Positions 2,971 to 6,481 of a stretch of 8,589 nucleotides of DNA are shown in pieces. The notes beneath the pieces were generated by a model. The model did not search any database. It saw nothing but the letters and a program-made list of their open reading frames with translations, and was not told the origin of the DNA. Source of the DNA: Candidatus Parcubacteria bacterium (lineage in GTDB: Bacteria > Patescibacteriota > Minisyncoccia > Minisyncoccales > JAGLUP01); assembly GCA_023134715.1 (NCBI GenBank), contig JAGLUP010000001.1, positions 1-8,589 of the forward strand, in the 5' to 3' direction. The position numbers and the translations under genes were made by a program. Numbering within the stretch: the stretch's first letter is position 1; every line of letters starts with the position of its first letter.

Positions 2971-5436
2971 GTGAAAAAATCAGAAAAATATATTCTTTGG
3001 TATAAGGAAATCTCTAAGAAAGATGTTTCTTTGGTTGGAGGCAAAAATGCGTCTTTAGGGGAAATGTTTTCCAAGCTATCTAAAAAGGACATCCGAATTC
3101 CTGATGGTTTTGTTTTAACTTCCCAAGCATATTGGTATTTTCTAAAACAAAACAAAATTGATAAAAAATTAAAACAAATTTTTAAAACCTTTAACCCTGA
3201 AAGCATTAGAAGTTTGCAAAAAACAGGGGAAAAAGCGCGCAATCTAATTTTAAAAAAAGAATTTCCAGAAGATTTAGAAAAAGAAATTATTGAAAATTAT
3301 AAAAAATTATCAAAACAATATAAAGAAAAAAATATCAGTGTTGCCGCGAGAAGCTCGGCTACGGCAGAAGATCTTCCGAGCGCGTCTTTTGCAGGACAGC
3401 ATGAAACCGAGCTTAATGTATCAGGAGAAAAAAACTTGTTAAAAGCCATTAAAAAATGTATGGCTTCTTTATTTACAGACAGAGCAATCGCTTATCGGGA
3501 AGAAAAAGGATTTGAGCATTTGAAAATCGCTTTATCAGTGGGAATTCAAAAAATGATTAGATCTGATTTAGCTTCTTCGGGAGTAATGTTCACATTAGAC
3601 ACAGAAACAGGCTTTCAAGGTGTAGTTTTAATTAATTCTATTTATGGGATAGGTGAAATGATTGTTAAAGGAAAAGTTATTCCAGACGAATTTTATGTTT
3701 TCAAGCCAACTCTTGAGAAGGGTTTTAAGCCGATAATTTCTAAAAATCTCGGAAAGAAAAATAAAAAGTATTTATATAATAAAAAGGGGGGATTAGAAGA
3801 GGTAAAAGTTCCCCAAAAAGACCAAATAAAATTTTCTATTGAAGATAAAGAAGTTTTAACTTTGGCAAAATGGGCATGTTTAATTGAAGAGCATTATGGG
3901 ACACCACAAGATATTGAATGGGCAAAAGACGGAAAAACAGACCAACTTTTTATAGTTCAAGCAAGACCGGAAACAGTGCATAGTTTAAAAAATAAAAACT
4001 TTTATGAAAAATATGAAATAAAAAGCAAGAAAAAGCCGATTTTAACAGGCATTGCTGTTGGAGATAAAATCGGACAGGGGAATATTCGCATTATTAAAAA
4101 TGTCTCTCAAATTAGTGAATTTAAAAAAGGAGAAACTTTGGTAACAAAAATGACTGACCCCGATTGGGTGCCAGCCATAAGAATAGCTTCAGCCGTAATT
4201 ACTGACGAGGGCTCTAAGGTTTGTCACGCGGCAATAGTATCTAGAGAATTAGGTGTTCCCTGCATAGTCGGCACGCTTAATGGTACCAAAATCCTAAGAA
4301 CAGGACAAATGATAACTGCTGATTGCGCTCAAGGAGCAACTGGAAAAATTTATTCAGGAAAAATTTCTTTTAAAATTAAAAAACGCAATCTGAAAAAAAT
4401 ACCTAAATTAAAAACAAAGATAATGGTTAACATTGGCGCCCCGGAAATTGCTTTTAAAACTTCATTTTTACCAAATGACGGAGTAGGGCTGGCAAGAGAA
4501 GAATTTATTATTGCCGAGAAAATTAGAATTCATCCGCTTGCTTTGTATTATTATAAAGAAATCAAAAACTCAAAAACATCCCTGCCAGGAATTTCAAACT
4601 TTATTCAATCTAATAAAAACTCAAAAACAACTCTGCCTGGCGGAGTATTCGGCTCCAATAAAAGCATAGTTAGACAAATTGATGAATTAACAATCGGCTA
4701 TGAAGATAAAAAGAAATACTTTGTTGATAAACTGGCTGAAGGGGTAGCAATGATTGCAGCGGCTTTTTATCCCAAAGAAGTAATCGTCCGTTTTTCTGAT
4801 TTTAAAAGCAATGAATATAAAAATTTAATTGGCGGAAAAATATTTGAAAATGAAGAAGCAAACCCAATGCTTGGTTTTAGAGGAGCTTGCCGCTATTTAG
4901 ATAAATCATTTCAGCCAGCTTTTAGAATGGAATGTCAGGCAATAAAAAAAGCAAGAGAGGAATTCGGATTGGAAAACATTACATTAATGATTCCTTTTTG
5001 CAGGACGATAAAAGAAGGAAAAGCAGTACTTAAACTAATGAAGCAGTTTGGCTTAGAAAAAGGAAAACAGGGTTTAAAAGTTATCGTAATGTGCGAGATT
5101 CCTTCCAATGTTATTTTAGCTGAAAAATTTTTAGAGCTTTTTGACGGAATGTCAATTGGCTCAAATGATTTAACTCAATTAACATTAGGTATAGACAGAG
5201 ATAATGCCAGAATAGTTTATATTACTGACGAACGAGATAAAGCTGTTAAAAAAATGATTAGCAGTGTAATTAAGCTTTGCCGCAAAAAGAAAAAATACTG
5301 CGGAATCTGCGGCCAAGCGCCGAGCGATTTTCCGGAATTCGCTGAATTTTTAGTTAAACAAAAAATTGAATCTATTTCCTTAAACCCTGACACAATAATC
5401 AAAACAATTTTAAATTTAGCTAAGATAAAAAAATAG
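2971..5436 (+). CDS. ppsA: Phosphoenolpyruvate synthase (pyruvate, water dikinase)
   Basis: Makes PEP for gluconeogenesis: pyruvate + ATP + H2O gives PEP + AMP + Pi. Three domains are visible. The ATP-grasp nucleotide-binding domain (about 8-345) has VGGKNASLGEM at 22-32, AARSSATAEDLPSASFAGQ from 125, QDIEW at 313-317 and QARPET at 330-335. The swivelling phosphohistidine domain (about 355-460) has CHAAIVSRELG, with H419 as the phosphorylated histidine (E. coli H421). The C-terminal PEP/pyruvate TIM barrel (about 470-820) has GVGLAREEF, SDFKSNEY, NPMLGFRGACRY, MCEIPSN with E709, GSNDLTQ at 730-736, and CGICGQ with C780 matching the catalytic cysteine of PPDK. The GTG start gives a typical N-terminus (EKYILWYKEI); an in-frame TGA at 2953 blocks longer starts and the next Met is M32. 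At 821 residues it is about 29 longer than the E. coli enzyme, explained by a duplicated insertion at about 532-563. The usual Gly-Gly before the active His reads Gly-Ser (G414-S415). It ends 7 bp before fbp. Confidence 0.95.
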   Translation: MKKSEKYILWYKEISKKDVSLVGGKNASLGEMFSKLSKKDIRIPDGFVLTSQAYWYFLKQNKIDKKLKQIFKTFNPESIRSLQKTGEKARNLILKKEFPEDLEKEIIENYKKLSKQYKEKNISVAARSSATAEDLPSASFAGQHETELNVSGEKNLLKAIKKCMASLFTDRAIAYREEKGFEHLKIALSVGIQKMIRSDLASSGVMFTLDTETGFQGVVLINSIYGIGEMIVKGKVIPDEFYVFKPTLEKGFKPIISKNLGKKNKKYLYNKKGGLEEVKVPQKDQIKFSIEDKEVLTLAKWACLIEEHYGTPQDIEWAKDGKTDQLFIVQARPETVHSLKNKNFYEKYEIKSKKKPILTGIAVGDKIGQGNIRIIKNVSQISEFKKGETLVTKMTDPDWVPAIRIASAVITDEGSKVCHAAIVSRELGVPCIVGTLNGTKILRTGQMITADCAQGATGKIYSGKISFKIKKRNLKKIPKLKTKIMVNIGAPEIAFKTSFLPNDGVGLAREEFIIAEKIRIHPLALYYYKEIKNSKTSLPGISNFIQSNKNSKTTLPGGVFGSNKSIVRQIDELTIGYEDKKKYFVDKLAEGVAMIAAAFYPKEVIVRFSDFKSNEYKNLIGGKIFENEEANPMLGFRGACRYLDKSFQPAFRMECQAIKKAREEFGLENITLMIPFCRTIKEGKAVLKLMKQFGLEKGKQGLKVIVMCEIPSNVILAEKFLELFDGMSIGSNDLTQLTLGIDRDNARIVYITDERDKAVKKMISSVIKLCRKKKKYCGICGQAPSDFPEFAEFLVKQKIESISLNPDTIIKTILNLAKIKK
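4564..4660 (+). repeat. In-frame duplicated palindrome-bearing insertion inside ppsA
   Basis: Two direct copies 51 bp apart, 4564-4589 and 4615-4640, share 15 identical bases (AAAAACTCAAAAACA) and match at 23 of 26 positions. Each copy ends in a small GC-rich palindrome: CCTGCCAGG at 4581-4589, and CTCTGCCTGGCGGAG at 4631-4645 with one G-T pair. The encoded residues are KNSKTSLPG (532-540) and KNSKTTLPG (549-557), within a low-complexity Asn/Ser/Lys stretch that runs to about 563. The stretch lies between the conserved HPLAL..YKEI segment and the QIDELTIGYEDKK segment of the TIM-barrel domain, where the E. coli enzyme has only a short linker. Its length is close to the excess of this protein over E. 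coli PpsA. The frame is kept and all catalytic motifs downstream are intact. The reading as an inserted element is an inference. Confidence 0.7.
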
Positions 5437-6381: not shown

Positions 6382-6481
6382 AAATTCTGTCTTTTCTTCG
6401 CGCTTTATCCCTTCCCGTCCCGATAGGCGGAAACTATCGGGACGGGAGGGAGCCCTACGCGTCTCAGAAAATCCAGAATTT
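6382..6481. repeat. Long nested hairpin element in the fbp-aldolase gap
   Basis: The core is a 17-bp stem (6410-6426 with 6434-6450, one G-T pair), of which CCCGTCCCGATAG / CTATCGGGACGGG is a perfect 13-bp inverted repeat, closed by a 7-nt loop GCGGAAA. Further out, TTTTCT (6392-6397) pairs with AGAAAA (6466-6471), CGCG (6399-6402) with CGCG (6458-6461), and AAATTCTG (6382-6389) with CAGAATTT (6474-6481). The element is about 100 nt and GC-rich against an AT-rich background. The core resembles dispersed GTCCCGATAG...CTATCGGGAC palindromes that I recall from Parcubacteria-like genomes. No T-run follows on either strand, so it is not a standard terminator. It takes up most of the 177-bp gap (6326-6502); nothing else is recognisable there. 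It could separate the expression of fbp and the aldolase gene by RNA processing. Confidence 0.8.

Follow-up and report, generated by a model that had tools for sequence, protein, structure and literature searches.

To our knowledge, discussion of palindromes that lie within protein-coding genes has so far centred on Rickettsia and Wolbachia. The Rickettsia palindromic elements (RPEs) are described as 105–146 bp long and as forming in-frame fusions with genes of Rickettsia (Ogata et al., 2000; 2002; as summarized in PMC2229807 and PMC10969869), and the same summaries report that the RPE-carrying enzyme Gmk is still active. An initial annotation likened to RPEs a repeated, palindrome-containing segment within ppsA of a Patescibacteria genome. 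The analysis described here indicates that this segment is probably an in-frame insert, neutral and specific to its lineage, that occupies a permissive surface loop of PpsA predicted to be disordered.

The DNA analysed (the window) comprises positions 1–8589 of contig 1 of a genome of 761,603 bp in 12 contigs. Between positions 942 and 7414 it encodes, in this order, acetyl-CoA synthetase, PEP synthase, fructose-1,6-bisphosphatase and a DeoC/LacD-type aldolase, a compact cluster leading from acetate to sugar within a genome of 0.76 Mb. At 6407–6450, the intergenic spacer that separates fbp from the aldolase gene contains a perfect palindrome, CCCGTCCCGATAG...CTATCGGGACGGG. The intergenic positions 2894–2957, immediately upstream of ppsA, hold an inverted repeat of the type TGTCATTCTGAGC...GAAGAATCT...AGAATGACA, and one of the same kind is found inside the ppsA loop of a relative (G109). 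The features of ppsA that concern us are as follows.

2971–5436, + strand: ppsA, phosphoenolpyruvate synthase, 821 aa, GTG start (open reading frame; PPDK_N, PEP-utilizers and PEP-utilizers_C domains; match to 2OLS)
4564–4589, + strand: direct repeat copy 1, encoding KNSKTSLPG (sequence comparison; codon shuffles)
4615–4640, + strand: direct repeat copy 2, encoding KNSKTTLPG, 51 bp downstream of copy 1 and 23/26 identical to it
4567–4662, + strand: in-frame insert of 32 codons in the loop flanked by KEIK and SIVRQ (orthologue alignments; pLDDT; single copy)
4630–4646, no strand assigned: palindrome ACTCTGCC-T-GGCGGAGT, 8-bp arms with one T-G mismatch, lying within and beyond copy 2

The two near-identical 26-bp copies of the initial annotation were borne out, with 23 of 26 positions shared at a spacing of 51 bp, which is 17 codons of one open frame. 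An equally good direct repeat within ppsA, at a distance of up to 150 bp, arose in only 5 of 2000 codon shuffles, and the duplication is therefore beyond chance. The two repeat units encode KNSKTSLPGISNFIQSN and then KNSKTTLPGGVFGSN; the tandem duplication is imperfect, unit 2 being two codons shorter than unit 1, and the unit is rich in A and T and contains an 8-bp TCAAAAAC doublet. The GC-rich palindrome that was thought to end each copy was recovered at copy 2, where the 8-bp arms extend 6 bp beyond the 26-bp repeat, but not at copy 1, the end of which (CCTG-C-CAGG) has 4-bp arms and is trivial as a palindrome. The palindromic part accounts for 17 bp of about 96, and the insert is not palindromic over its element length. 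When the whole insert was folded as single-stranded DNA, its folding was somewhat more favourable than that of shuffled sequences (z −2.24; 4/200).

The initial annotation had also proposed a search of the host genome for further copies of the segment. Neither BLAST nor patterns allowing three mismatches recovered a second copy there, the segment itself being the only match. The best secondary match (C5:211281–211313) is apparently ordinary Mur-ligase coding sequence, judged from the protein. No convincing match to the segment was obtained in 60 relatives; the matches seen in two of them, G051 and G021, are AT-rich and look fortuitous. The palindrome at 4630–4646 is the only perfect match to its own pattern in the genome, and a pattern search there with its core, ACTCYGCCWGGCRGAGT, returned five other sites, all with three mismatches, versus none for the reversed pattern, which does not amount to a clear family. 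With gathering scores as the cut-off, Rfam reported nothing in the window or the loci with the repeats described below.

The insert adds about 22–31 codons to PpsA beyond its relatives, which here are members of the same order from families other than that of the window's genome. In comparison with the solved PpsA of N. meningitidis (2OLS), 40 residues (529–568) stand in place of 9, so that the insert accounts for the length excess of the protein, as had been proposed. Across 28 orthologues from the order, the region bounded by AEKI and KLAE measures 46 residues in its commonest form, 54 in the second form and 76 here, and the loop form that is longer by 8 residues (KKKAKKDGKIKKIV) is widespread across the order. 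The alignment of relatives thus found the segment missing or different, with most sequences having a short turn only. A structure model of PpsA, built from a 32-row alignment (mean pLDDT 87.4), has 2OLS as its best solved match. Modelled residues 536–561 have pLDDT values below 50 and link helices 528–533 and 563–573, two helices of the PEP-binding domain. The insert is accordingly modelled as a disordered surface loop, its exposure being judged from the secondary structure, which agrees with the location first suggested for it; a low pLDDT value is an indication of disorder rather than evidence that establishes it.

Of the 247 genomes of the order, 204 gave a match to a profile of the short-loop form, and the sizes of inserts were taken from the spans of the profile matches, together with the alignment for the window. 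At least 22 genomes carry 14 or more extra codons in the PpsA loop, a lower bound, and inserts occur in ten families if that of G039 (12 extra codons) is counted. The inserts differ between families and are often unrelated in sequence. Relative to a short-loop orthologue, 170 inserted residues fall at this loop in 13 of 27 orthologues; the next internal site has 30. One occupant of the loop is a 31-bp palindrome, CCCGCCTTCGCTAAAGCTTCGGCGGGCAAGC, for which we coined the label FAKA; it is present in the loops of G039 and G015 and as two tandem copies in that of G078. The loop of G037 holds a 36-bp palindrome, AGTTGACTTTTTCTACAGGTGTCGTAAAAGTCAACT, with at least eight copies in the G037 genome, one of them 100% identical, and that of G109 holds a TCATTCTGA..GAAGAATCT repeat. 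Arrays of 7-bp units (TTCCAAA/TTCCAAG type, read as SKFQIPNKSQI) occupy the loop in G045, G104, G106, G077, G068 and G064, and inserts of further kinds were seen as well. With nine loop inserts as one concatenated query and the reversed sequence as a control, 50 matches were obtained, all to the forward half; the heptad-type inserts matched many genome sites and, among the matches listed, none lay in the reversed half beyond junction self matches. The occupants of the loop in G037, G039, G015, G078 and G109 are copies of dispersed repeats and, because several unrelated repeats of this kind occupy it, the PpsA loop is an insertion hotspot. In other relatives (L009, L003, L015, L016 and L026), too, the PpsA loops contain peptides that resemble inserts, for example SLPAGRQG, TLRQAQGK and TSAEAAKATAGEE.

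The FAKA palindrome was aligned as 17 distinct 31-bp sequences, taken from copies that were reached via the PpsA loop, and a covariance model was built. In the hairpin, 97% of cells pair, versus 26–47% with slid partners, and compensatory changes are seen at two pairs. The model matched in 143 of the 247 genomes, at up to 25 copies each (11 in that of the window). The element has a 31-bp core and a 37-bp unit when in tandem, and its length is not near 100–150 bp. As a source for the insert in the window FAKA was rejected, the family model giving no match there with filters off. The proposal of an RPE-like, gene-invading repeat therefore stands in one part, such a palindromic family being present in the order and in this genome, and fails in the other, since the single-copy ppsA segment is no member of it.

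Among 92 well-conserved FAKA copies, a sample biased by that selection, 79 lie within open reading frames of 120 aa or longer, with a minimum of 20 codons flanking the element on each side. The frames used are sense 0 (PAFAKASAGK) in 42 cases, sense 1 (RLRQGYGGQA) in 16 and sense 2 in 3, together with antisense 1 (LPAEALAKAG) in 11 and antisense 2 (ARRSLGEGG) in 7; the sixth frame is unused because it contains TAG in the common form. Since the genomes are mostly coding, the fraction within frames reflects tolerance of FAKA inside genes rather than a preference for them. Pfam domains were found in 19 of the 20 FAKA-bearing frames scanned, and in 12 of the 20 the element falls within a domain. 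The genes hit include those for tRNA synthetases, RecR, a TRCF-like helicase, topoisomerase I, Mur ligases and MnmA, and solved homologues show gaps opposite FAKA for peptidyl-tRNA hydrolase (Pth) of the window's genome, for enolase of G078 and for RecG. The G078 enolase (L193) carries three tandem copies at 37-bp spacing, which add about 39 residues with the frame unbroken. The five copies read from the window's genome are all within frames, in gatA, pth, the C-terminal tail of rplV, the N-terminus of rpsI and an Fe-S ATPase gene; copies L258, L259, L260, L261 and L262 (contigs C9, C6 and C7) use two reading frames. Opposite the copy in GatA the homologue carries its own residues, and FAKA may therefore have replaced sequence there rather than lengthened the protein. 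Copies from different genomes share a protein position in threonyl-tRNA synthetase (L243, L300 and L290) and in RecG (L283 and L310), which suggests further hotspots or common descent. No description of the FAKA peptide, or of palindromic repeats in CPR genes, was found in the open-access literature searched, a scope that leaves most subscription papers outside, and FAKA is apparently a coding palindrome family so far undescribed. FAKASAGK-like peptides are presumably familiar from CPR protein sets, which we treat as a lead and not as evidence.

How, then, might the ppsA insert have arisen? Founding material may have entered the PpsA loop once, to be tandem-duplicated by slippage or unequal recombination and to drift afterwards. 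The insert would have survived because its length remained divisible by three and because the loop tolerates extra residues; it would be without a function of its own, merely tolerated by the enzyme. As the segment is in single copy and matches neither relatives nor FAKA, the founding material would be either slippage of the AT-rich codons of the loop or a small palindromic repeat now decayed past recognition. Local growth through slippage of those codons and their tandem duplication, without a mobile element, has close to an even chance of being correct. The AT-rich unit with its internal doublet, the local nature of the duplication and the absence of dispersed copies point this way, although the GC-rich core CTGCCNGG, which is unlike the AT-rich gene, is kept in both units, and the neighbours' inserts at the site are often dispersed repeats. 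Alternatively, a small mobile palindromic repeat from some family besides FAKA may have entered the loop, as the repeats of relatives did, and may since have been duplicated in tandem and decayed; this is a serious possibility that we nevertheless place below even odds. The dispersed-repeat copies in the same loop of five relatives, the tandem doubling of the element in G078, the folding of the insert and a GC-rich palindrome flanked by AT-rich words of the CAAAAAC type, as around FAKA copies, are all consistent with such an origin. Against it stand the single copy in the genome, the lack of a family match in relatives and a palindrome that has no clear family and is not FAKA.

A selected role for the loop extension in the regulation or assembly of PpsA is very improbable: the Asn/Ser/Lys-rich loop has been retained with an intact reading frame, but its sequence and length vary between families, most relatives are without the extension and the loop is predicted to be disordered. 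An ordinary family linker that is just unusually long here is very improbable since the insert is absent from most relatives and, although loop length does vary across the order, exceeds even the longer form by 22 residues, resembles none of the loops read and holds a duplication beyond chance.

Taken alone, the probably neutral insert is of modest interest; the loop hotspot together with the coding palindrome family is of interest to specialists. A 31-bp family in conserved genes of well over 100 candidate-phylum genomes, with one loop that has independently taken up several repeat families, offers a natural experiment on how proteins gain loops and on how short repeats can spread when no transposase is obvious. 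Moreover, length variants of CPR proteins may reflect invasion by repeats and not function. Tentatively, and on balance with more doubt than confidence, we propose that this Patescibacteria order harbours an undescribed RPE-like system, in which FAKA and other short palindromes spread within conserved genes in almost any open frame, a few protein loops, for instance the PpsA loop and sites in ThrS and RecG, are recurrent landing sites and the insert in the window is a decayed occupant.

Several known systems invite comparison. In the mitochondrial genes of Nematomorpha (PMC6649704), inverted repeats are likewise kept within protein-coding genes; those repeats are long, perfect and mitochondrial, and form no dispersed sequence family. 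The bacterial MITEs (ERIC and the short form of Correia/NEMIS; PMC2229807) are, as here, small repeats that give in-frame gene fusions, but they measure 107–127 bp and longer, have terminal inverted repeats and TA target sites and are mostly intergenic, whereas the FAKA copies sampled are mostly in open reading frames. The protein-coding palindromic repeats of Wolbachia (Ogata et al., 2005, as cited in PMC2229807) are coding palindromes outside Rickettsia; by that description, they belong to another phylum. With respect to RPEs, the ppsA segment lies in frame in a conserved gene, occupies a loop and is absent in relatives, features of which in-frame loop insertion alone is shared with them; it has no further genomic copies and is weakly palindromic, with no palindrome over its full length. 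The likeness is closer for FAKA and for the G037 palindrome, which are palindromes read in frame in conserved genes and extend surface loops. RPEs, compared here by description, have 105–146 bp and a favoured reading frame, whereas FAKA has 31 bp and uses five frames. Overall, length apart, FAKA appears by analogy to work like an RPE in the features tested, RPEs being known here by description.
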